Part shown: positions 3,737 to 40,729 of the stretch, piece by piece | How positions within the stretch are numbered: the first letter of the stretch is position 1 | Layout of the letters: each line of letters opens with the position of its first letter | Source of the DNA: Spirochaetales bacterium | GTDB lineage: Bacteria; Spirochaetota; Spirochaetia; DSM-2461 | Direction: 5' to 3' | Length of the DNA stretch: 64,000 bases | NCBI GenBank assembly: GCA_028532905.1 | Contig: JAQQAM010000016.1 | Coordinates: 1-64,000 of the forward strand | The notes under the pieces: generated by a model | Told to the model about the DNA's origin: nothing | The model's database searches: none | What the model saw: only the letters and a program-made list of their open reading frames with translations | Translations under genes and position numbers: made by a program

Positions 3737-4862
3737 ACAGAGAAACAATCTCCTTCAGTTCCGGTTCCCGGGGGTTGGTCACAATACAGGCATCTTTCAG
3801 GGACATCTGTGCCAGAGTCCGGCATTCGGGAGAGGAGAGTTTGAATTTCCCCAGCTCCTCCCGGACGCCGCTTCCCTCTACAAGAATGGCCAGTGCCTCT
3901 ACCAGAGACTCCTTACCGTGAATATCGTCACAGGAGCCCCGGAGTGCTTTGGTAATCCGGTCATACCGTTCGGGACAGGCATCATAATTATAGGAGCACA
4001 CATTCTGCAGAAGGAGTCCGTTGCAGATGCCATGGGGAAAGTCCTTGAGTCCACCCAGAACATGGGCCATGGCGTGCACCAGCCCCAGACTGGCATTGGA
4101 AAAAGCCAGTCCCGCTTCCAGGGACGCCTGCATCATATAGGCCTGAAGAGTCCGGTCCTCCCTGTGGCTCAGAGCGGGAATAAGATGTTCCCCCACCAGT
4201 TCGATTGCCCCCAGGGCATGGCGGTCTGTCATAAAGGAGTGGGCCTGTGAGACATAGGCTTCTATGGAATGGGTCAGAGTATCCAGACAGACCGCAGCCA
4301 TCAGTTCATGGCTCATGGTTTCCAGGGTATCCGGATCGATGAGAGCAATATCGGGAACAACCGATTTTGAGATAATGGCGATTTTCCGGTGTCCCTTTGT
4401 ATCGGTGATAATAGCAAACTGGCTGACATCGGCAGAGCTGCCGCAGGTTGTGGGAATGCAGATCAGGGGAGGGATGGGTTCAGGTATGGCATCCACTCCC
4501 TCGTAGTCAAGGATATGACCGCCGTTGGCCGCAACAATTCCGATTCCCTTGGCGGCATCCAGCACGGAGCCACCTCCCACAGCGAGTATCACATCACAAT
4601 TCTGCTCTTCATAAAAAGCAGAGCCCTCCATGACCTGTGTATCTCTGGGATTGGGAAGGATGGCATCGTAGAGTTCATAGGAAATATCCCGTTCTTCCAG
4701 AGAAGCCTGAACAGCTGCCGTCCATCCGGCGTCCCGGACCCCCGGGTCGGTAACAAGAAGGACTTTGGAAGCCCCCATGTGCTCTGCATAGCGTCCGGCT
4801 AGAGAAACAGCCCCAGATCCGAAAACGAATTCGGGGCACAGAAATTTTCTCATTTCATTCAT
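3711..4862 (-). CDS. ercA: Iron-containing alcohol dehydrogenase, ErcA-like
   Basis: VGGGSVLDAAKGI, IPTTCGSSADVSQFAIITD, metal ligands in CLDTLTHSIEAY and LVHAMAHVLGGLKDFPHG; followed directly by a histidine kinase gene. Confidence 0.8.
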   Translation of the reverse strand: MNEMRKFLCPEFVFGSGAVSLAGRYAEHMGASKVLLVTDPGVRDAGWTAAVQASLEERDISYELYDAILPNPRDTQVMEGSAFYEEQNCDVILAVGGGSVLDAAKGIGIVAANGGHILDYEGVDAIPEPIPPLICIPTTCGSSADVSQFAIITDTKGHRKIAIISKSVVPDIALIDPDTLETMSHELMAAVCLDTLTHSIEAYVSQAHSFMTDRHALGAIELVGEHLIPALSHREDRTLQAYMMQASLEAGLAFSNASLGLVHAMAHVLGGLKDFPHGICNGLLLQNVCSYNYDACPERYDRITKALRGSCDDIHGKESLVEALAILVEGSGVREELGKFKLSSPECRTLAQMSLKDACIVTNPREPELKEIVSLYEETFTVR

Positions 4863-29314: not shown

Positions 29315-30526
29315 ATGTCACAATTGAAAAATGCCGGACTGATCAGTATGGGAGGATACCTCCCGGCCAAGAATGTCCCTGAAAATAAAAGAGAAAATCT
29401 GGTGAAGTTCCTGAGAAAAGAGACTCTCCTTCATCATGAATATATCGACGAAATTGAAGAAAAGGGTCATATGCCCGGCCGGATTGAAACAAATTACGAC
29501 GGATGGGAGTCACAGCCCTGGTTTGATGAATGGGTATCCAGACTTCCCCCTAAAAAACAGTCCAACCCCTTTCAGGGGGCTGTAGAGAGAAGACGGGTTC
29601 CCATGGACCCTGTATCTGTAAAAAAATCCATACATCCCCACCCCATGCTCTCATCTGATGCCGAGACCATTGCAGCGGCCAAGGCTATTTACAATGCAGG
29701 GATCGACAAGGACGAAATTGACCTTGTCCTCTGTTCTTCTCTGGTTCCCGATCTTCCCGTTCCCCAGAACGCGTCACTGGTTCAGCACAAACTGGGACTC
29801 AAGAATGCGGGGGCCATTAATGTGGATACATGCTGTTCCTCCTTCATCACAATGATGGAGATAGCCATGAATTATGTCCGCTGCGGGGCTAAGAAAAAGG
29901 TTCTGATTGTAGGCAGTTCTCTGGATTCCATAATCAACGATAAATCCACTTACTACAGTGTGTATATCGGTGACGGAGCAGTGGCCGGCATTGTGGGAGA
30001 AGTGGAAAACGGTTACGGCTATATTGCCTCCCATTCCCACAGTATCGGGAAACGCCATAAGGCTATTATCTTTCAGAAACGGGCTCCCAGTATCTTTATT
30101 CCCACATCCCAGGGACCCAGTTACGAGCAGGAATTCGTTACCTTCTATGACAAGGACATGCAGAAAGAGATTGCCCATGAGACTCAGAACGATATCCGCA
30201 GAGTCAGCAGCAAGATGTTCGCAAAGACAAAATACACAGAGAAAGATATAGACTTCCTGGTAACCCACCAGCCTGTTCCCTGGACTCCAGATTCCTGGAG
30301 GGAATGCCTGGGGGTTCCCAAAGAAAAGCTCTATCATTCCTGGGAAAAATATGGAAACATCGCCGTCGCCTCCTCAGCAGTAAACCATTTGGAAGCCATT
30401 GAACAGGGTCTGATGAAAGCCGGTGACAAAACCATGATTGTCTCCTCGGGTGTGGGTGAAAATCACATAGCTCTGTTCCACAGAATCTCACCGACCCTGG
30501 TAGAAAATGTAAAACATGAGTGCTGA
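29315..30526 (+). CDS. 3-oxoacyl-ACP synthase III-like / thiolase-fold ketosynthase
   Basis: NVDTCCSSFITMMEIA (Cys), VTHQPVPWTPDSW (His), YGNIAVASSAVN (Asn), GDGAVAGIVG; unusually long N-terminal segment before ERRRV. Confidence 0.85.
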   Translation: MSQLKNAGLISMGGYLPAKNVPENKRENLVKFLRKETLLHHEYIDEIEEKGHMPGRIETNYDGWESQPWFDEWVSRLPPKKQSNPFQGAVERRRVPMDPVSVKKSIHPHPMLSSDAETIAAAKAIYNAGIDKDEIDLVLCSSLVPDLPVPQNASLVQHKLGLKNAGAINVDTCCSSFITMMEIAMNYVRCGAKKKVLIVGSSLDSIINDKSTYYSVYIGDGAVAGIVGEVENGYGYIASHSHSIGKRHKAIIFQKRAPSIFIPTSQGPSYEQEFVTFYDKDMQKEIAHETQNDIRRVSSKMFAKTKYTEKDIDFLVTHQPVPWTPDSWRECLGVPKEKLYHSWEKYGNIAVASSAVNHLEAIEQGLMKAGDKTMIVSSGVGENHIALFHRISPTLVENVKHEC

Positions 30527-30947
30527 TCTGGATCACATCGCTGTAAAAGTATCCGATATTGAGTCCTTCAGCTCAGCTCTGGCAGGACTGGGGTACACTC
30601 TGGAATCTGTGAAGCAGCATGATGAAGTGGGAATGAAGATTGCCTTTATGGCGCCTCCCTCCCCTTCGGCAGCAGAAAAGATGGAACTTCTTGAGGTTAC
30701 GGATCCGGACAGTCCCATTTCGGGAGACCCTGAAGGTCTCCACCACCTGGCTGTTTCCGTACCGGATATTGAAGAAAGCTACAGAATGATGTCGGAGGAC
30801 CCTCTGTATGCGGTGGAGGGAACCATCAGGCAGGGGGCTCATACCCGGATTTTCTTTTTCAGAATGACCGGACAGAAGGAGCCTCTGTTTGAATGCTGTG
30901 AACAAAAAGGCAGACCTTCGGAAACCAGGGGAGAGAACAGGCAATGA
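30516..30947 (+). CDS. VOC-superfamily protein, methylmalonyl-CoA epimerase-like
   Basis: LDHIAVKVSDIESFSSALAGLGYTLE, MELLEVTDPDSPI, EGLHHLAVSVPDIEESY, KEPLFECCE; putative His/His/Glu metal ligands kept. Confidence 0.78.
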   Translation: MSADLDHIAVKVSDIESFSSALAGLGYTLESVKQHDEVGMKIAFMAPPSPSAAEKMELLEVTDPDSPISGDPEGLHHLAVSVPDIEESYRMMSEDPLYAVEGTIRQGAHTRIFFFRMTGQKEPLFECCEQKGRPSETRGENRQ

Positions 30948-31729
30948 ATATGAAACTTGACGGAAAAACAGCCCTTGTCACAGGCGGTGCCGGCGGCATC
31001 GGCAGAGCCGTCACCCTGACCCTGGCGGCAGCCGGAGCCCGGGTGATTGTTGTCTGCCGGGACGTGGAGAAAGCGGAAGAGACCCTTACACTGGCGGAAA
31101 AGCTGGATGGACAGGTGGAATATACCCTTATGGATCTGGCGGATGAGCAGAACCGGGAAGAAGTGATGAACGGAATTCTGGCTGGAGCCGGTACAATCGA
31201 TATCCTTGTAAACAATGCAGGAATCTCCGGATATATGGGTCCCGTCAGCGAGACACCCCTTGATGAGGTGAAGTCCGTTCTGGAAGTGAATCTGAATGCC
31301 CCCTTCCATCTGGCTCAGAAGGTAATTCCTTCCATGACAAAAAAGGGATTCGGCCGGATTATCAATATCAGCTCCGTGGCACCCAGAGTCAATCCGGCCT
31401 TTACGGTCAGCTACAATATGAGCAAAGCCGGACTGAATTCTTTCACCACCTCCCTCTCAAGAGAGGTGGGAGCTAAGGGCATCACAGTCAATGCCCTGGC
31501 TCCCGGGCTGGTCATGACTGAGAGAATCAGAACCAAAAGAATCCCCGGACTGGCAGCCGAAAGAGGACTCACAGAAGATGAGATTCTCAATGGCATGAAA
31601 TCCAAGTCGGATACAAAAGAACTGACAACCGAGAAGGAACTGGCAGAAACAGTGCTGTTTCTCTGCTCTTCCTCTGCCAAAAATATTAGCGGTGAGATTA
31701 TTGAACTCTCCGGGGGATATCAGGGATAA
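30944..31729 (+). CDS. Short-chain dehydrogenase/reductase (FabG-like)
   Basis: ALVTGGAGGIGRAV, NNAGISG, INISSVAPRVNPAFTVSYNMSKAGL (Ser/Tyr/Lys); ATGA overlap with previous gene. Confidence 0.9.
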   Translation: MNMKLDGKTALVTGGAGGIGRAVTLTLAAAGARVIVVCRDVEKAEETLTLAEKLDGQVEYTLMDLADEQNREEVMNGILAGAGTIDILVNNAGISGYMGPVSETPLDEVKSVLEVNLNAPFHLAQKVIPSMTKKGFGRIINISSVAPRVNPAFTVSYNMSKAGLNSFTTSLSREVGAKGITVNALAPGLVMTERIRTKRIPGLAAERGLTEDEILNGMKSKSDTKELTTEKELAETVLFLCSSSAKNISGEIIELSGGYQG

Positions 31730-31773: not shown

Positions 31774-32223
31774 ATGGTAGACTACAACAAATTCAAAACA
31801 TTTATGGAACAGTACTTCAAGGACTACAGCCAGTACGCACAGGATGCGGAAACAATGCCCAAAATGGACAAATACTGGACTGAGGATATAAAGGTCACAG
31901 CCTATTTCCAGCTGCCCGGGGGTGACTACCCTTTTAAGATGGACAACCGGCGCGTATGGGAAGACTTTCTTATCAAGGGACATCTGACAATCTGGGAAAA
32001 TCTGAGCCCTACAGATATGATGATCGATACGGTTCAGCTTAAGGCGACAGCCATGCTGAAGGTCGTTAAATTCGACCGGAAAACAGACAAGGAACTGGTG
32101 AACCTGGACGGTATAGGATATTACACTCTGGTGGAAAAGGAAGGCGGAACTCTTCAGATAAAGAGCCTGGATTTCTTTACCGGTGATGCCGGTACTTTTG
32201 CCAGCCTCTACACTCAGGAATAA
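31774..32223 (+). CDS. NTF2/SnoaL-like small protein
   Basis: About 149 aa with predicted cone-fold pattern: KFKTFMEQYFKDYSQYAQDAETMPKMDKYWTEDIKVTAYF...; in operon context. Confidence 0.55.
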   Translation: MVDYNKFKTFMEQYFKDYSQYAQDAETMPKMDKYWTEDIKVTAYFQLPGGDYPFKMDNRRVWEDFLIKGHLTIWENLSPTDMMIDTVQLKATAMLKVVKFDRKTDKELVNLDGIGYYTLVEKEGGTLQIKSLDFFTGDAGTFASLYTQE

Positions 32224-32302: not shown

Positions 32303-32737
32303 ATGGACAGTAAAGCAGTATTGGTAACCGGCGTTATTGGTGAAGACGTGCATGTAACCGGCATCAGGATTCTGGAACATGCTCTGCGAAAGGACGGCTT
32401 CACTGTTCATTCTCTGGGGATTCACAACTCCCAGGAAGATTTTATCAGCAAGGCTGCGGAAGTAAAAGCCGATGCCATACTGATCTCTTCCCTGGCCGGA
32501 CATGCGGAGATGCTTGTTCAGGGTTTCCGGGAAAAATGCGACAAAGCCGGTCTGAAACAGACTGAACTCTATATTGGCGGCCAGCTGGTAATCCATGCGG
32601 AAGAGTGGGAAGCAACGGAAAAACGCTTTCTGGATCTTGGCTTTACAGCCGTTGCCGTCCCTTTCAATCCCCCCGGAAATGTTCTGGCAGAGCTCAATGA
32701 ACGGTTCTGTGACAGCCGGAAAAAAACCACAGCCTGA
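32303..32737 (+). CDS. Cobalamin-binding small subunit of a B12-dependent mutase (methylaspartate/glutamate mutase S-like)
   Basis: VTGVIGEDVHVTGIRILEHAL (DxHxxG), ILISSLAGHAE, ELYIGGQL. Confidence 0.88.
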   Translation: MDSKAVLVTGVIGEDVHVTGIRILEHALRKDGFTVHSLGIHNSQEDFISKAAEVKADAILISSLAGHAEMLVQGFREKCDKAGLKQTELYIGGQLVIHAEEWEATEKRFLDLGFTAVAVPFNPPGNVLAELNERFCDSRKKTTA

Positions 32738-32775
32738 GGCAGGATTCCGCCAGGCAGAAACAGGAGAACAGATAA

Positions 32776-34218
32776 TTGGAAATCTCAAACAGGAAATGGT
32801 CGGATGATTTCTTTCAGAAAGAGAGGGAAGAGGTACTGTCCCAGTGGTCCACCGGTGCAGATGTGGACCTTGACGACGCTGTGGCCTACCACAAGAGCCT
32901 GCCGGACTCACAGAATGCGGCTCTGAAAACTCTGAAAGCCAGAGAAGAGGGAAAGACTCTCCTTTGCCCTTCCCTGGGTTCCGATACTGTTGAAAACCAT
33001 AAAAGTCTCCTGCTCCATATGCAGAATGAAGCCGGTGTTGATATCCTGACATCCTATATAGACAGCCTTACAAGAAACTGCCGGTTTGAGATGGCCAGCC
33101 AGGGGCTGATGAAGGCGGAAGCCACAGGACGGCCTGTATTAAACGGCTTTCCCTTTGTTGTCCATGGAGTTCAGAAAACAAGAGAAGTTATGAATGCCGT
33201 CGATCTGCCGTCCATGCTCTTCGGCCCCACCCCCGACGCCAGACTGACCCACGAAATCGGACTGGCCGGCGGTCATACAGGATATTCCGGCGGCCCGATG
33301 ATTTCCTTCTGGAACTACACCAAGAATGTTCCTGTAGAAAGTGTTATTCACAATTTTCAGTATATAAACAGACTCATGGGCACTTATGAAGAGCAGGGTG
33401 TTCCCATCCTTTATGCCGTAAGCGGAGCCATGCCATCGGTCAGCCCGCCTTCACTGATGATTGTGCCGGAAATAATTGAAGTCCTTATTGCCGCCGGTCA
33501 GGGGGTTAAGCACATTCAGTTGAACAACTGGCTCCAGGGACATGTGGCCCAGGATCTGGCCTATATTCAGGTGCTGAAAGAGAAGGCTGATTACTATCTG
33601 AAAGAGTGCGGTTTCGACGATGTGGAAACCATAACCTACAGTGTCAGCCCCACAGGCCGTTTCCCTGTAGAGGCAGACCAGGTGTATGCGCTGATTTCTC
33701 ACTTTACCATGATCGGAGTCATGGGAGGTGTTCAGGTCTGCGGGTCAAGGACCATTGATGAGGCTCTCCATATTCCCACAAAAGAAGGCTCTGCTCACAG
33801 CTTCCGGAATGCCCGAATGTTTCTGAATATGCTTCAGCCCCAGAAATTCGATATCTCCGGCCACAGTGAAATTCAGCAGGAAAAACAGATTATGGAACTG
33901 GAAGTGGACTGCCTGATGAAGAAGATTCTGGAAATCGGGGGCGGCGATATTGTCAAAGGAACCGTCAAAGCTGTGAAGCTTGGCATTCTTGATCAGCCCT
34001 ATTCCACATCCCAGCTGGTGAAAGGTGAAGTTCTGGGCGTCAAGGATGAAAAAGGTGCCGCCCGGTATTTCGATATGGGTCAGCTTCCCTTCAGCCGGGA
34101 GATCAAAGATTTTCACAGAGAAAAAATCGAAGCCAGAGAAAAAATCCTGGGTGAAAAGGTCAGCTATGACACCATCATTCAGGACATGACAGCCATCAGT
34201 GCAGGTTCAATTCTCTAA
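32776..34218 (+). CDS. Glutamate mutase epsilon-subunit-like protein (B12-dependent carbon-skeleton mutase, divergent active site)
   Basis: TTG start; colinear with GlmE from residue 1 (NRKWSDDFFQKEREEVLSQWSTGADVDLDDAV), LNGFPFVVHGV, TPDARL, IPTKEGSAHS, VKGTVKAVKLGILDQPYS. Confidence 0.88.
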   Translation: MEISNRKWSDDFFQKEREEVLSQWSTGADVDLDDAVAYHKSLPDSQNAALKTLKAREEGKTLLCPSLGSDTVENHKSLLLHMQNEAGVDILTSYIDSLTRNCRFEMASQGLMKAEATGRPVLNGFPFVVHGVQKTREVMNAVDLPSMLFGPTPDARLTHEIGLAGGHTGYSGGPMISFWNYTKNVPVESVIHNFQYINRLMGTYEEQGVPILYAVSGAMPSVSPPSLMIVPEIIEVLIAAGQGVKHIQLNNWLQGHVAQDLAYIQVLKEKADYYLKECGFDDVETITYSVSPTGRFPVEADQVYALISHFTMIGVMGGVQVCGSRTIDEALHIPTKEGSAHSFRNARMFLNMLQPQKFDISGHSEIQQEKQIMELEVDCLMKKILEIGGGDIVKGTVKAVKLGILDQPYSTSQLVKGEVLGVKDEKGAARYFDMGQLPFSREIKDFHREKIEAREKILGEKVSYDTIIQDMTAISAGSIL

Positions 34219-34404: not shown

Positions 34405-37400
34405 ATGAGCAGAAAAGTATTGACTGTCCAGACTAAGCTTCTGGCCGGATTTTTAGGCATACTCATCCTGGCCGGATATGCAGGAATAACCGGTATAAGG
34501 GGCATTTCAGAAATAAATTACCAGAACAGCATTGGTACGGTAGTTGATGAACTTGTGGCCTACACAGAGAACGCTCAGGCTGCCTCTCTCAGATATATTA
34601 TTTATGAAGACGAGAGTTTTCACGATGCGGCAATGGAAGCAGCCGACACGGTTCTTGAACTGGCGGGTACAGCAGAATCCATGATGCTGGTGGAGGCCAA
34701 CAGAAAGAATACTCAGAAACTGACAGAAACAATGGAACAGTACAAGAGCCTGATTTCCGCCTCAAAACAGGTGGAACAGGAGAAACTGGAGTCCCAGACC
34801 ACCAGACAGACAGTGGGTATCAATGTCATCAGAATGCTGGAGGATCTGCTGGCATCCCTCATTCAGCAGCAGAAGGTGTCAGTCTCCCGGAGTGAACTGG
34901 ATTATCTGAATACCACCATTGAAGAAATACAGCTGATCCTTTCCCTGATGAATGAGTTTAGATCGGATGCGCTGAATTACAATATTGAGAGAACCGACAA
35001 GGACCGGGAAAAAGCCTATGCAGCCTGGATCAGTAAACTGGACGAACTGCTCACAGAACTGAACATCCTTGAAGAAAATGCCATCAGTTCTGTTCATAAA
35101 ATGAATTTCAACACCATAGCTGCGTCTCTGAAACAATACAGAGCAGAAGTACAGAGATTCCACACCCAAACGGCAGAGATGTGGCAGAAACAGTATGATC
35201 AGCGGGAAGTAGCCGCTCAGGTAATGACCCAGGTTCATCTGGTGCGGGACGGCGTACAGTCAATTATTAAAGAAGAAACAGACAGCACGAAGCGAGCCAT
35301 CCTGTTCAGTCTGATTATGGCCGTCCTTTTCAGCATTCTCATTGCTCTGCTCCTCTCAAAAAACATTACAGTTCCTCTGATTCAGGGAATCAGTGTTGCA
35401 GGGAATATTGCTGCTGCCAGACTGGACAACAAACAGCTGAACCTGAACAGAACTGATGAGCTGGGAGAACTGGCCAGGGCACTGGACACAATGACTCACA
35501 GCCTTCAGGTACAGAACTGGCTGCAGGAGGGAAAACAGGGGCTGGACGATGAACTGAGGGGAGATTTCGACCTGAAAGACCTGGCTCAGAAGTTCATTAC
35601 CTTCCTGACAAAACATATGAATGCTCAGCTGGGAGCCTTTTATCTGTATGACGAAAAAGAGACCCTTGAGCTGATATCTTCCTACGCCTTTACCGATAGG
35701 GCCGGCAATTTCAACAGAATAAAACTGGGGGAAGGTTTTATCGGACAGGCCGCTATGGAGAAAGAAGTTCTGTACTTCTCCAAGCTTGATGAGGCACCCG
35801 GATATAACTACGGAGCAGGCGAAGAGAAGCCCGATCACTTTCTCACAGGGTCTCTGATCTTCAAGGATGAACTGATAGGCTCATTTCTTCTGGGATCTTT
35901 CACCCCCTTCAATGAAGATCAGAAAGAGTTTATTTCATCCACAATCGACAACGTTGCCGTCCTGTTCAATGCGGCCAAATCCAGAGACACCATTAGTCTA
36001 CTGCTCAGCAATTCCCAGCAGCAGCAGGAAGAGCTGAAGAAGATTAATGAAGAACTGGAAGACCAGACCAGAGCCCTCAGGGAATCAGAAGCTGAGCTCC
36101 AGGCACAGCAGGAAGAACTGAGGGTGACCAATGAGGAGCTGGAAGAAAGAACCCAGGCTATTGAAGAACAACGTGACTCAATCCGCATTAAAAACGAAGA
36201 GCTAGTGCAGGCTCAGCAGGATATAAGCAAAAAAGCTGAGGACCTGGAGCAGGCCAGCCGCTACAAATCAGAGTTTCTGGCCAATATGTCTCATGAGCTG
36301 AGAACCCCTTTGAACTCGATTCTTATTCTGGCACAGCTTTTATCTGCTAATAATGATGGAAATCTTACTGAGAAACAGGTGAAATCCGCCAGTGCTATCC
36401 ACGCTTCCGGCTCTGACCTGCTAAAACTGATCAACGATATTCTCGATCTGTCCAAGGTGGAAGCCGGTAAGGTCGAACTCAATATGGAAACAGTAAATTT
36501 CAACACCGTAATTGATGATCTGAAGAGAGTTTTTAATGAGTCGGCCACCGAAAAAGGGTTGGAACTGAGCTTCACAAAACAGGAAGGCATCAGAGAGACA
36601 ATACAAACCGACGGCCACCGACTGCAGCAGGTCCTCAGAAACCTTCTGACCAATGCCATTAAGTTTACCGAAAGCGGTTCGGTATCCATGGACATCGTTT
36701 TGCCAGACAAAGCCTGGAAAGGGATGAAAAAGGGTGAATATTTCCAGATCAGAGTAAAAGACACGGGTATCGGTATACCCGAAGAAAAGCAAAGTGCCAT
36801 TTTTGAAGCCTTTCAGCAGGCCGACGGCAGCACTATGCGCAAGTTCGGTGGAACCGGACTGGGGCTCTCCATATCGAAGGAACTGACAAAACTTCTGGGA
36901 GGAGAACTGAAACTGGAAAGTGAAGAGGGAAAAGGCAGCACCTTCTATATAACCCTACCCTTTCCGGAGGACAAACCTGCTGAGAGCTTGCCCGAGCAGG
37001 AGACAGGGAACCAGTTATCTGGATCAGACCCGGCAGAAGAAACAGCCGGCACCAGTCCGGAAACAAAACAGCCCTCCCCCCCTTTAAAGTATGAAGACTC
37101 TGAAATTGTGGATGACAGATTGGATCTGCATGATGAAGACAAGACGATTCTCATTATCGAAGATGATCCCAATTTCGTTTCCGTTCTGTCAGATCTTGTG
37201 AAAGAGAAAGGATTTAAAACTCTTATCGCCGCGGACGGGGAGACAGGGCTCCACTTTGCCGATTACTACAAACCGAATGCCATTATTCTGGACATCGGAC
37301 TTCCGGGCATTGACGGATGGACAGTCATGGAGCGGCTCAAGGACAATCCGGAACTCAGGCATATTCCCGTTCACTTTATGTCGGGGCGGGATGACAACCT

Positions 37401-38310
37401 CCAGGCTATGCGTATGGGTGCCATCGGCTATCTGACCAAACCGGTTTCTGTCAGCGACATTGACTCGGCACTGTGTAAAATTGATAAATTTACAGAATCC
37501 CACATCAGTACTCTTCTGGTTGTGGAAGATGATGATATTCAGAAGGAAAGCATAATCGAGCTCATCGGCAGTGATGATATTGAAATCACTGCTGTGTCCA
37601 CAGGCAAAGAAGCTTTTAAAGCACTTAAAAGCAGCTGTTTTGACTGTATGATCCTCGATCTGGGCTTGAAAGACATGTCTGGTTTCGATCTTCTGGAACA
37701 TATAAACGATGATCCCGGATGCGCTCGGATTCCCATCATCATCTATACCGGCAGGGAACTCAGCAAAGAGGATGAGGAATCTCTGAATAAATATGCCGAA
37801 AGCATAATCATAAAAGGCATAAAATCCCCTGAACGGCTGCTGGATGAAACATCCCTTTTTCTCCATCGAATAGAATCCCGGCTCCCTGAAGAGAAACGGA
37901 AGATGTTGAAGGGAATCCATAACAGTGAATCTGTTCTGGAGGAGAGAAAGATTCTCCTTGTGGATGATGATATGCGCAATGTTTTCGCCCTCACCAGCAT
38001 TCTGGAAGATAAAAAGATGGAAGTGATTGTGGCACGGGATGGTCTGGAAGCTGTGGAAAAGGTTAAATACGAAGCGGGAATAGATCTTGTTCTTATGGAT
38101 ATTATGATGCCTAAAATGGATGGATATGAAGCCATGCGGCAAATTCGGAAAGAACATCAGTTCAGGAATCTGCCCATCATTGCTCTGACAGCCAAAGCCA
38201 TGAAGGGCGACAGAAATAAATGCATTGAAGCCGGAGCCAGTGACTATCTGGCAAAACCGGTGGAGACGGAAAAACTCCTCTCCATGCTGCGGGTGTGGTT
38301 GTATAGATGA
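34405..38310 (+). CDS. Hybrid sensor histidine kinase: MCP-like periplasmic helical sensor, HAMP, GAF, coiled coil, HisKA/HATPase, three receivers
   Basis: FLANMSHELRTPLNSILILAQLL, GTGLGLSISKELTKLLGG, three receiver cores TILIIEDDPNF, TLLVVEDDDIQ and KILLVDDDMRN; GAF FITFLTKHMNAQLGAFYLYD. Confidence 0.92.
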   Translation: MSRKVLTVQTKLLAGFLGILILAGYAGITGIRGISEINYQNSIGTVVDELVAYTENAQAASLRYIIYEDESFHDAAMEAADTVLELAGTAESMMLVEANRKNTQKLTETMEQYKSLISASKQVEQEKLESQTTRQTVGINVIRMLEDLLASLIQQQKVSVSRSELDYLNTTIEEIQLILSLMNEFRSDALNYNIERTDKDREKAYAAWISKLDELLTELNILEENAISSVHKMNFNTIAASLKQYRAEVQRFHTQTAEMWQKQYDQREVAAQVMTQVHLVRDGVQSIIKEETDSTKRAILFSLIMAVLFSILIALLLSKNITVPLIQGISVAGNIAAARLDNKQLNLNRTDELGELARALDTMTHSLQVQNWLQEGKQGLDDELRGDFDLKDLAQKFITFLTKHMNAQLGAFYLYDEKETLELISSYAFTDRAGNFNRIKLGEGFIGQAAMEKEVLYFSKLDEAPGYNYGAGEEKPDHFLTGSLIFKDELIGSFLLGSFTPFNEDQKEFISSTIDNVAVLFNAAKSRDTISLLLSNSQQQQEELKKINEELEDQTRALRESEAELQAQQEELRVTNEELEERTQAIEEQRDSIRIKNEELVQAQQDISKKAEDLEQASRYKSEFLANMSHELRTPLNSILILAQLLSANNDGNLTEKQVKSASAIHASGSDLLKLINDILDLSKVEAGKVELNMETVNFNTVIDDLKRVFNESATEKGLELSFTKQEGIRETIQTDGHRLQQVLRNLLTNAIKFTESGSVSMDIVLPDKAWKGMKKGEYFQIRVKDTGIGIPEEKQSAIFEAFQQADGSTMRKFGGTGLGLSISKELTKLLGGELKLESEEGKGSTFYITLPFPEDKPAESLPEQETGNQLSGSDPAEETAGTSPETKQPSPPLKYEDSEIVDDRLDLHDEDKTILIIEDDPNFVSVLSDLVKEKGFKTLIAADGETGLHFADYYKPNAIILDIGLPGIDGWTVMERLKDNPELRHIPVHFMSGRDDNLQAMRMGAIGYLTKPVSVSDIDSALCKIDKFTESHISTLLVVEDDDIQKESIIELIGSDDIEITAVSTGKEAFKALKSSCFDCMILDLGLKDMSGFDLLEHINDDPGCARIPIIIYTGRELSKEDEESLNKYAESIIIKGIKSPERLLDETSLFLHRIESRLPEEKRKMLKGIHNSESVLEERKILLVDDDMRNVFALTSILEDKKMEVIVARDGLEAVEKVKYEAGIDLVLMDIMMPKMDGYEAMRQIRKEHQFRNLPIIALTAKAMKGDRNKCIEAGASDYLAKPVETEKLLSMLRVWLYR

Positions 38311-39155
38311 GAACACCGGCAACCAGCACAAAAGAAATCCTGGATAACGAATATCTGGAACTTGAGCTTCTTCTGGAAGGGATCTACAGGAAATACGGAT
38401 TTGATTTCAGGGACTATTCAGGAGTTCATATTAAACGCAGACTGAATCACCGTCTTTCAGCTTCGGGTCTTCAGAATTTTACCCAGATCCTGCACCGGAT
38501 CATTTACGATGAGGAGTTCTTCAAACAGATCCTCCTGGATCTCTCAATCAATGTCACCGAAATGTACAGAGACCCCCAGTTTTATCTGGAACTCCGACAA
38601 AAGGTGGTTCCCTATCTGTCCACCTACCCCTTTATCAAAATTTGGCATGCGGGGTGTTCTGCGGGTCAGGAGGTGTATTCCGATGCCATTCTTCTGGAGG
38701 AAGAGGGCCTTCTGGAAAGAGTGCAGATCTATGCAACCGATTTCAACGAGAAGATCCTGCAGAAGGCCAAAGAGGGAATCTATCCGGTTGAAGAGATACG
38801 CCGGTATACGGAAAACTACCAGAAAGCCGGAGGTACAGAATCTTTCTCCGACTATTACACTGCCCATTATGACTCTGCAATGATCAAAAAGAGTCTGCGC
38901 AACAACATATTGTTCTCCTTTCATAACCTGGTCACTGATGGAGTGTTCGGCGAGATGAATATGGTGTTCTGCCGTAATGTTCTTATCTATTTCAACAAGG
39001 ACCTGCAGAACCGAGTACTGAAACTCTTCCATGACAGCTTGATTCCGGGAGGATTCCTGTGTCTGGGCAGCAAGGAATCTTTGAAGTTTTCCGATCTGGA
39101 AGACAGGTTTGAAATTATCTCTGCCAAAGAGAAAATATACAGGAAGAAAAGATGA
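38307..39155 (+). CDS. cheR: CheR-type protein-glutamate methyltransferase
   Basis: FSDYY...IKIWHAGCSAGQEVYSDAILLEEEGL, VFCRNVLIYFNKDLQ, GGFLCLGSKESL; ATGA overlap with kinase. Confidence 0.9.
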   Translation: MRTPATSTKEILDNEYLELELLLEGIYRKYGFDFRDYSGVHIKRRLNHRLSASGLQNFTQILHRIIYDEEFFKQILLDLSINVTEMYRDPQFYLELRQKVVPYLSTYPFIKIWHAGCSAGQEVYSDAILLEEEGLLERVQIYATDFNEKILQKAKEGIYPVEEIRRYTENYQKAGGTESFSDYYTAHYDSAMIKKSLRNNILFSFHNLVTDGVFGEMNMVFCRNVLIYFNKDLQNRVLKLFHDSLIPGGFLCLGSKESLKFSDLEDRFEIISAKEKIYRKKR

Positions 39156-39730
39156 ACAGGTACAGTGCTCTGGTTATCGGCACCTCTGCCGGCGGTCTGA
39201 ATGCCCTGACCCGGATCATACCGGCCCTGAATAAAGGCTTCCCTGTCCCCATTATTATTGTTCAGCATATGAGCCCGGAAGGATCAAACTTCACCTCCTC
39301 TTACCTGGATACAATTTCCAGCCTCAATGTGAGGGAAGGAGATGAAAAAGAGATGCTTGAACCGGGAACAGTCTATCTGGCAGCACCCAATTACCATCTT
39401 CTTATAGACCGGAACAAAACACTGAGCCTGTCTGTAGATGCCAAGGTGAATTACTCCCGTCCCTCCATAGATGTTCTGTTTGAAAGTGCCGCAGAGGTTT
39501 ACAGAGAAAAGCTCCTGGCGCTGGTCCTCACAGGGGCAAACAGCGATGGGACAAAGGGAGCATTGAAAGTCATCGAATTCGGAGGATCTGTTCTGGTTCA
39601 AGATCCGGAAACAGCAGAAGCTGCCGCCATGCCCCTGTCTGTCATTGAACACTGTCAGGTAGAAGCAATACTCCCTTTGGATGAGATTGCCGATTACCTG
39701 AATACCAAAATATACGAAAAAGAGAATTAA
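39152..39730 (+). CDS. cheB: CheB-type methylesterase without receiver domain
   Basis: VIGTSAGGLNAL (Ser), IVQHMSPEG (His), LALVLTGANSDGTKG (Asp). Confidence 0.9.
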   Translation: MNRYSALVIGTSAGGLNALTRIIPALNKGFPVPIIIVQHMSPEGSNFTSSYLDTISSLNVREGDEKEMLEPGTVYLAAPNYHLLIDRNKTLSLSVDAKVNYSRPSIDVLFESAAEVYREKLLALVLTGANSDGTKGALKVIEFGGSVLVQDPETAEAAAMPLSVIEHCQVEAILPLDEIADYLNTKIYEKEN

Positions 39731-40729
39731 ATGGAAGAATTTAAAATACTGATTGTTGATGATATAAAAGAGAACCTTTACTCCCTGGAACTGCTCCTTG
39801 AAGATGAGGATATAACCCTTGTTACTGCCCGTTCAGGAGAAGAGGCTCTGGCCAGAACACTGGACCACCGTTTTTTTCTGATTCTTATGGATGTGCAGAT
39901 GCCCGGTATGAACGGATACGAGACAGCCGAGCTGCTCAGAGGCAACAGCAGAACAAGGGATATACCCATCATCTTTATTACTGCGAACAGCAGAGATGAA
40001 GATCAGCTGTTCAAGGGTTATGATCTGGGTGCTGTGGATTATCTGGTTAAACCCATAGCCACACCGGTTCTGAAAAGTAAAATCAATGTATTCAGAACCT
40101 TCCACCGACAGCAGCAGGAATTGATGATAAAGACCAGAGAATTGAATGGTACGATCTCCGAACTGGAGGAGCTGCAGCAGGAACTGGAAGAGAAGAATGA
40201 ACAGCTTAAAATCCTATCCAGTGAAGACGCCCTGACCGGACTGTACAACAGAAGGCTGCTGGATATATTCCTGGATGAAGAGTGGAGCAGGGCTATGCGG
40301 AACAAAACGCCCCTCTCAATTATCATGGGCGATATTGATGAGTTCAAACTTTATAACGACTATTACGGACACCCCAAGGGAGATGACTGTCTTGTTAAAG
40401 TGGCCCGGGAGTTCAAAGGTGCTTTTCAGAGACGGATAGACCGGGTTGCCCGGTACGGAGGAGAAGAGTTTATAGCTCTCCTCCCTGAAACGGACCTGAA
40501 AGGTGCGGAAGGACTGGCCGAAAATCTCCTGAAACAGCTGCGTCACAGAAGGATCCCCCACGAAGGCTCAGCCCGGAATGAATTTCTTACCATAAGCCTG
40601 GGGGTCTGTACTACCATTCCCAAGGAAGGACACGATCTGGACGAACTGCTGAAAAATGTCGACCAGGCTCTTTATGAAGCCAAAGACAAAGGCCGGGACA
40701 GATATGTATCCCGGCTCTGTGAATGCTGA
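39731..40729 (+). CDS. Response regulator with GGDEF (diguanylate cyclase) output
   Basis: ILIVDDIKENL, LILMDVQMPGMNGYE, VARYGGEEFIALLPET (GGEEF). Confidence 0.92.
   Translation: MEEFKILIVDDIKENLYSLELLLEDEDITLVTARSGEEALARTLDHRFFLILMDVQMPGMNGYETAELLRGNSRTRDIPIIFITANSRDEDQLFKGYDLGAVDYLVKPIATPVLKSKINVFRTFHRQQQELMIKTRELNGTISELEELQQELEEKNEQLKILSSEDALTGLYNRRLLDIFLDEEWSRAMRNKTPLSIIMGDIDEFKLYNDYYGHPKGDDCLVKVAREFKGAFQRRIDRVARYGGEEFIALLPETDLKGAEGLAENLLKQLRHRRIPHEGSARNEFLTISLGVCTTIPKEGHDLDELLKNVDQALYEAKDKGRDRYVSRLCEC

Follow-up and report, generated by a model that had tools for sequence, protein, structure and literature searches.

The gene at positions 32776–34218 of the window, by which we mean the whole 64,000-nucleotide stretch of DNA analyzed here, encodes a homologue of GlmE, the catalytic subunit of glutamate mutase. 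It is preceded by five genes that all run in the same direction, and together they form a six-gene operon in the order KAS III-like synthase, methylmalonyl-CoA-epimerase (MCE)–like protein, short-chain dehydrogenase/reductase (SDR), SnoaL/NTF2-fold protein, MutS, and MutE. The genes, followed by the pocket residues of MutE, are:

29315..30526, + strand: KAS III-like ketosynthase, 403 amino acids, with an N-terminal extension of ~100 amino acids (PF08541/PF08545)
30516..30947, + strand: MCE-like VOC/glyoxalase protein, 143 amino acids (PF13669)
30944..31729, + strand: SDR, 3-oxoacyl-reductase-like, 261 amino acids (PF00106/PF13561)
31774..32223, + strand: predicted SnoaL/NTF2-fold protein, 149 amino acids (AlphaFold2 model with a mean pLDDT of 94.2, and Foldseek)
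32303..32737, + strand: MutS/GlmS-like cobalamin-binding subunit, 144 amino acids (NF002612, 147.6 bits; cut-off, 110)
32776..34218, + strand: MutE/GlmE-like catalytic subunit, 480 amino acids (TTG start with AGGAG upstream; PF06368, 389 bits; TIGR01503, 400.3 bits)
32971..32973, + strand: Ser66 (codon TCC), replacing GlmE Arg66 of the upper arginine claw
33073..33075, + strand: Arg100 (codon AGA), retained; clamp of the acrylate/propionate carboxylate
33220..33222, + strand: Phe149 (codon TTC), replacing GlmE Arg149 (Leu in loci L025 and L026)
33286..33288, + strand: Ser171 (codon TCC), replacing the amino-group contact Glu171 of GlmE
33304..33306, + strand: Ser177, replacing GlmE Tyr177 (Ala in L025)

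The substrate pocket of MutE

A sequence-only reading of this DNA had claimed that MutE carries Ser, Arg, Phe, and Ser at positions 66, 100, 149, and 171, and these residues and codons were found exactly as described. The claim depended on a colinear numbering of Clostridium cochlearium GlmE, which turned out to be right: in phmmer comparisons, residues 1–479 of MutE aligned with residues 1–478 of GlmE (359 bits for 6h9e and 355 bits for 1cb7) at 38% identity, and the alignment was gapless until after residue 219. An AlphaFold2 model of MutE, for which the input comprised 12 sequences from the window and the loci (pTM of 0.90, mean pLDDT of 87), superposed on 1cb7_B with a TM-score of 0.96 and an rmsd of 1.7 Å over 481 columns. 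Sequence and structural alignment agreed on the substitutions R66S, R149F, and E171S with R100 retained; a proper alignment placed no Arg/Arg/Glu at positions 66/149/171, which are faced by S66, F149, and S171. Two further changes came to light, namely the replacement of the pocket residue Y177 by S177 and a conservative change of K326 to R325. Apart from the latter, the catalytic framework (R100, N123, Y181, and E330) was intact.

In structures of glutamate mutase published in 2022, R66, R149, and E171 bind the glycyl half of the substrate, and R100 and Y177 bind the acrylate half (PMC9545868). Judged by these published roles, the window enzyme would have nothing left of the glycyl site and a single one of the two contacts to the acrylate half. 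No new positive residue replacing R66 or R149 appeared in the listed pocket columns, except for R295 (in the G296 column). Canonical GlmE has 167 columns with a conservation of 95% or more; in the window-type clade described below, 52 of these were switched to another residue and 77 were kept. All four documented sites were among the switched columns (hypergeometric 0.009, a guide only, as the columns are not independent). Summed over the 12 listed switched pocket columns, side-chain volume was lower by ~490 cubic angstroms, a bookkeeping of tabulated residue volumes and not a measured cavity; thus, the cavity of the window MutE should be larger.

By overall family and fold, MutE belongs with the glutamate mutases, as it matches PF06368, exceeds the TIGR01503 equivalog cut-off of 390.1, and superposes on the known structure. 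It retains the lower carboxylate clamp R100 together with N123, Y181, and E330; however, it has neither the upper arginine claw (S66 and F149) nor E171 and Y177 (S171 and S177). Because the fold and cofactor features are present while the substrate-site features are missing, we regard MutE as a putative variant within the family that shares the glutamate-mutase fold rather than as a glutamate mutase. Its score above the curated cut-off means that automatic annotation would name it "methylaspartate mutase subunit E," which, for an enzyme without a glutamate site, is probably a misnomer. The accompanying MutS, which scores slightly under the TIGR01501 cut-off (130.4 of 135.8), keeps D15-x-H17-x-x-G20, S62-S63-L64, and G92-G93, and its DxHxxG motif is invariant in 11 homologues.

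A clade found in three phyla

We collected 70 MutE rows, drawing on plasmids, genome contigs, and whole genomes. The 42 canonical GlmE sequences placed in the tree invariably kept R66/R100/R149/E171/Y177 (RRREY); this holds even for three outlying rows, at 24 to 31% identity or strongly diverged, among them homologues from Streptomyces (L111, 24% identical to the window) and Roseibium (L112, 31%). In contrast, 12 window-type rows had S66 and S171 in common, together with F149 (Leu in two of them, L025 and L026) and S177 (Ala in one, L025); the row of G1021 is a fragment with positions 66 and 100 outside its coverage. In a tree built without the pocket columns, these rows formed a single clade with 100/100 support, comprising members of Spirochaetota, Acidobacteriota/Aminicenantes, and Bacteroidales. 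Because the 12 rows from three phyla share these states while 42 canonical rows keep RRREY, the comparison indicates that the pocket pattern is not chance drift. All that could be examined by sequence agrees with the earlier suggestion of an apparently active B12 mutase whose substrate is not glutamate: across the clade, the glycyl-site residues appear to be gone, while the radical/cofactor framework and R100 are retained. The word "lost," used in that suggestion, presumes a direction of change that an unrooted tree such as ours does not settle. Likewise, the IPTKE motif had been called kept, which does not hold throughout the clade, as L014 and L015 carry IPTPE.

Within the family to which the window genome belongs, 4 of 26 genomes carried the clade. 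It is rare: it occurred in 1 of the 395 Spirochaetota genomes sampled, 1 of 396 genomes of the phylum of L028, and 3 of the 295 genomes sampled from the order Bacteroidales, each of these three counts including the query's own genome. Its carriers include Aminicenantes/Acidobacteriota metagenome-assembled genomes (MAGs; L024, L025, L026, L028, and L029) and Bacteroidales (L027, G915, and G1021). Clade proteins from different phyla were 61 to 66% identical, as compared to 35 to 38% identity to canonical GlmE of the window's own class, which suggests that the clade may have spread by horizontal transfer. Phage records yielded no MutE homologue, no plasmid homologue exceeded 38.5% identity to the window MutE, and the four plasmid MutE loci that we read out had the canonical RRREY pocket. 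Within the genus, where dS could be estimated, dN/dS was 0.04 to 0.08 for MutE and 0.04 to 0.18 for the other five genes; thus, MutE and the operon genes are under purifying selection. An annotation error or frameshift in MutE was rejected given the open frame, the low dN/dS, and the concordant orthologues.

Ten loci, distributed over the three phyla, had the identical six genes in the same order. G1021 is consistent with this order, its operon being split over two contigs, while L025 is irregular: neither SDR nor MutS is present in its complete copy, and another KS-SDR lies 7 kb further on, at the contig end. We looked for an extra conserved gene that would complete the pathway and rejected this possibility, as no gene outside the six was widely shared among the operon loci; the six-gene core thus appears self-contained. 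Pairwise-identity correlations were 0.78 to 0.90 among the ketosynthase (KS), MCE-like protein, SDR, MutS, and MutE and 0.41 to 0.71 with the 149-amino-acid protein, consistent with the six genes having been inherited as a unit. We found no description of this operon in the literature, a weak absence given that the search covered open-access papers; within that scope, the six-gene set, common to unrelated anaerobic bacteria, was previously unnoticed.

The surroundings of the operon vary. The Aminicenantes copies (L025:8200-14095, L029:13017-15093, and L026:9129-10121) are accompanied by B12-binding radical SAM proteins (in L025 and L029) and by repeated SpoIIAA-like proteins of ~137 amino acids, a hint of a larger cluster there. 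A Cache-type chemoreceptor gene lies just upstream of the three Bacteroidales copies (L027:3098-4966, L103:5087-6931, and L105:4227-5963). In the window, the operon is followed at 34405–40729 by genes for a hybrid histidine kinase, CheR-like and CheB-like proteins, and a GGDEF response regulator; a kinase and a CheR-like gene likewise adjoin the operon in L013.

Four other noncanonical MutE types were found, namely RRRAS, RRRPW, GRRPD, and RRLLY, whose operons differ from that of the window. All four kept R100, as did every MutE row covering position 100, and all four had E171 changed; R149 was kept in RRRAS, RRRPW, and GRRPD, and R66 in all but GRRPD. The window clade was joined with RRRAS, RRRPW, and GRRPD at 100/100; the placement of long branches is uncertain. 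That all groups have R100 and yet differ in the remaining half of the pocket suggests that the GlmE fold may serve as a "propionate + X" mutase: the R100/propionate side would stay fixed, and the migrating group X could differ between lineages.

These groups also have neighborhoods of their own. MutE-MutS fusions of the RRRPW type were found in L116 (6359-13520; G144:C67) and L117 (G563:C90). The fusion in L116 adjoins GlmL, a glycyl radical enzyme (GRE; 854 amino acids, under every NCBIfam equivalog cut-off), and its activase, and an activase is also found near the copy in L117; a new GRE + B12-mutase pathway is possible at these loci. RRRAS-type MutE/MutS are flanked by several CaiB/BaiF and other CoA-transferases in L114, L115, and L119 (G637, G715, and G691) and probably constitute an amino-free dicarboxylate mutase of another pathway. 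The GRRPD-type MutE of L107 (7475-9347; G144:C54), which is accompanied by MutS and has an OYE-type reductase and an SDR close by, is also above the TIGR01503 cut-off (391.7 of 390.1).

Partner proteins and a candidate pathway

The best PDB matches of the KAS III-like protein are of the FabH, PqsD, and CerJ types; it is below the FabH cut-off (TIGR00747, 134.6 of 292 bits), and its Cys174/His318/Asn348 triad is invariant in 14 homologues. The MCE-like protein gave a profile match to 6qh4/3rmu MCEE and is under the TIGR03081 equivalog cut-off (52 bits versus 115). Of the metal ligands of MCE, which we take to be His, Gln/His, His, and Glu, it retains three (H7, H77, and E126), with Val38 at the Gln/His position; with one ligand missing, it may not be an epimerase. 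A role of this gene in ordinary propionate metabolism was also considered and is unlikely in eight of the 12 clade genomes because these carry a separate true MCE. The SDR has Ser-Tyr-Lys by alignment and falls below the cut-offs of the NCBIfam FabG/3-hydroxybutyrate dehydrogenase subfamilies. The 149-amino-acid protein matched no Pfam or NCBIfam family and no PDB sequence, and its assignment to the SnoaL/NTF2 fold is by predicted fold only: its model was closest in Foldseek to SdnG, [4+2]/[6+4] cyclases, and a putative polyketide cyclase (E ~1e-6 to 1e-5), with a TM of ~0.7 to NTF2-fold cyclases. Its conserved residues are Y14, Y18, H70, and D85. In L024, a second SnoaL-like copy with a signal-peptide-like N terminus lies upstream of the operon (3915-4442).

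Canonical glutamate-mutase operons, such as those of Peptoclostridium and Ensifer, carry GlmL, of the mutase reactivase family, and methylaspartate ammonia-lyase, while the clade operon has polyketide/acyl-type enzymes instead of this glutamate-fermentation set. GlmL was over the cut-off in 2 of 12 clade genomes: in L029 its gene immediately follows MutE, and in G440 it lies at another site. It was not found in the window genome. Methylaspartate ammonia-lyase (PF07476) was over the Pfam cut-off in none of the 12; several of these are incomplete MAGs, so that single absences are weak but the agreement of all 12 is not. The METHYLASPARTATE pathway was rejected on this absence and on that of a second MutE from the window genome.

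We infer the activity, substrate, and direction of MutS/MutE from these data. The gene pair at 32303–34218 is likely, though not certain, to encode the catalytic, nonglutamate adenosylcobalamin (AdoCbl) mutase of the six-gene operon, and its substrate, judging by the pocket, is probably a different, less charged molecule. Against this reading stand the TIGR01503 score above the cut-off, the presence of GlmL in only two of the 12 genomes, which do not include the window genome, and the MCE-like protein being one ligand short.

In the proposed mechanism, MutS-bound AdoCbl would be homolyzed, and the 5'-deoxyadenosyl radical would take a hydrogen alpha to the carboxylate held by Arg100. A group X on the neighboring carbon would then migrate (X-CH2-CH2-COO- <-> X-CH(COO-)-CH3). 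The X of glutamate mutase is a glycyl group, bound by R66, R149, and E171. As this site is replaced by Ser, Phe/Leu, and Ser, together with Ser177, X in the window enzyme would be neutral and probably larger. Acyl or beta-keto chemistry would be the task of the remaining four proteins of the operon, and it is from this operon company only that we tentatively prefer an acyl group as X. The KAS III-like synthase might then make a 4-oxo acid, which the mutase would rearrange to a 2-methyl-3-oxo acid; the MCE-like protein could epimerize its alpha-centre, the SDR could reduce the ketone, and the SnoaL-like protein might cyclize, dehydrate, or isomerize the product. The full version, in which acyl migration on a CoA-free or ACP-bound 4-oxo acid forms a methyl branch within a minimal six-protein polyketide-like pathway spread among anaerobic phyla, is conceivable but clearly less likely than not.

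The same genes might instead serve a degradative pathway that straightens a methyl-branched acid, the KAS III-like protein acting as an acyltransferase or in reverse. AdoCbl mutases are reversible, methylmalonyl-CoA mutase (MCM) and GlmE often run catabolically, and the MAGs carrying the clade belong to mostly anaerobic lineages, all of which would suit such a role. However, the operon is not conserved together with any CoA ligase, dehydrogenase chain, or transporter, KAS III-fold enzymes are mainly synthetic, and the SnoaL-like protein comes closest in fold to biosynthetic cyclases; we therefore rate degradation as rather unlikely. Less probable still is an amino-free dicarboxylate substrate (2-oxoglutarate, methylsuccinate, or similar), of the kind that sister groups keeping R66/R149 and lacking E171 may use. 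The 100/100 grouping with the RRRAS and RRRPW types, found near CoA-transferases or a glycyl radical enzyme, speaks for it, but in the window clade, which has neither R66 nor R149, a second carboxylate would have no obvious partner.

That the enzyme is still a glutamate mutase, binding glutamate by a rearranged set of residues, seems very improbable. The equivalog score, the 38% identity with the same fold, and the kept R100 would all fit, yet canonical rows keep RRREY even at 24 to 31% identity, the listed columns offer no positive substitute for R66/R149 other than R295, methylaspartate ammonia-lyase is missing from all 12 genomes, and the operon company is unlike that of glutamate fermentation. 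Last, a noncatalytic, sensory or regulatory cobalamin-binding pair, to which the chemoreceptor or hybrid kinase genes flanking some copies might point, is hardly credible given the kept radical framework, the intact triad of the KAS III-like partner, the GlmL adjoining MutE in L029, and the lack of conservation of the sensory neighbors.

Comparison with known mutases

There are few carbon-skeleton B12 mutases, and the name of the family is taken to settle which substrate each one uses. A GlmE fold working as a "propionate + X" mutase with changeable X would parallel the acyl-CoA mutases, and the small size and specificity of the six-gene operon make the proposed nonglutamate mutase directly accessible to expression and testing.

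The closest known system, GlmS/GlmE of C. cochlearium (EC 5.4.99.1; 1cb7, 1ccw, and 6h9e), has in common with the window enzyme the fold (TM of 0.96), the two-subunit split, the cofactor motifs, and R100, N123, Y181, and E330. The window enzyme differs from it by R66S, R149F/L, E171S, Y177S, K326R, and ~50 switched columns, and it lies in a different operon without methylaspartate ammonia-lyase. The vicenistatin-type VinH/VinI and other natural-product MutS/MutE likewise place a glutamate-mutase pair in polyketide-type biosynthesis, and there the alpha-methyl centre is epimerized later, as in the pathway proposed here (PMC11284099). Unlike our reading of the window enzyme, those mutases convert glutamate to 3-methylaspartate (PMC11284099). 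The divergent Streptomyces homologue L111, which is not VinI itself, keeps RRREY, whereas the window clade does not.

Methylmalonyl-CoA mutase and its epimerase provide another case in which an AdoCbl mutase is paired with an MCE homologue; in contrast to MCM, the window MutE matches PF06368 only, and the structural similarity between the two is low (TM ~0.5). In isobutyryl-CoA mutase, the specificity switch relative to methylmalonyl-CoA mutase is from Tyr/Arg to Phe/Gln. There, too, the substrate is changed through the replacement of a carboxylate-binding arginine, as we propose for the window enzyme.
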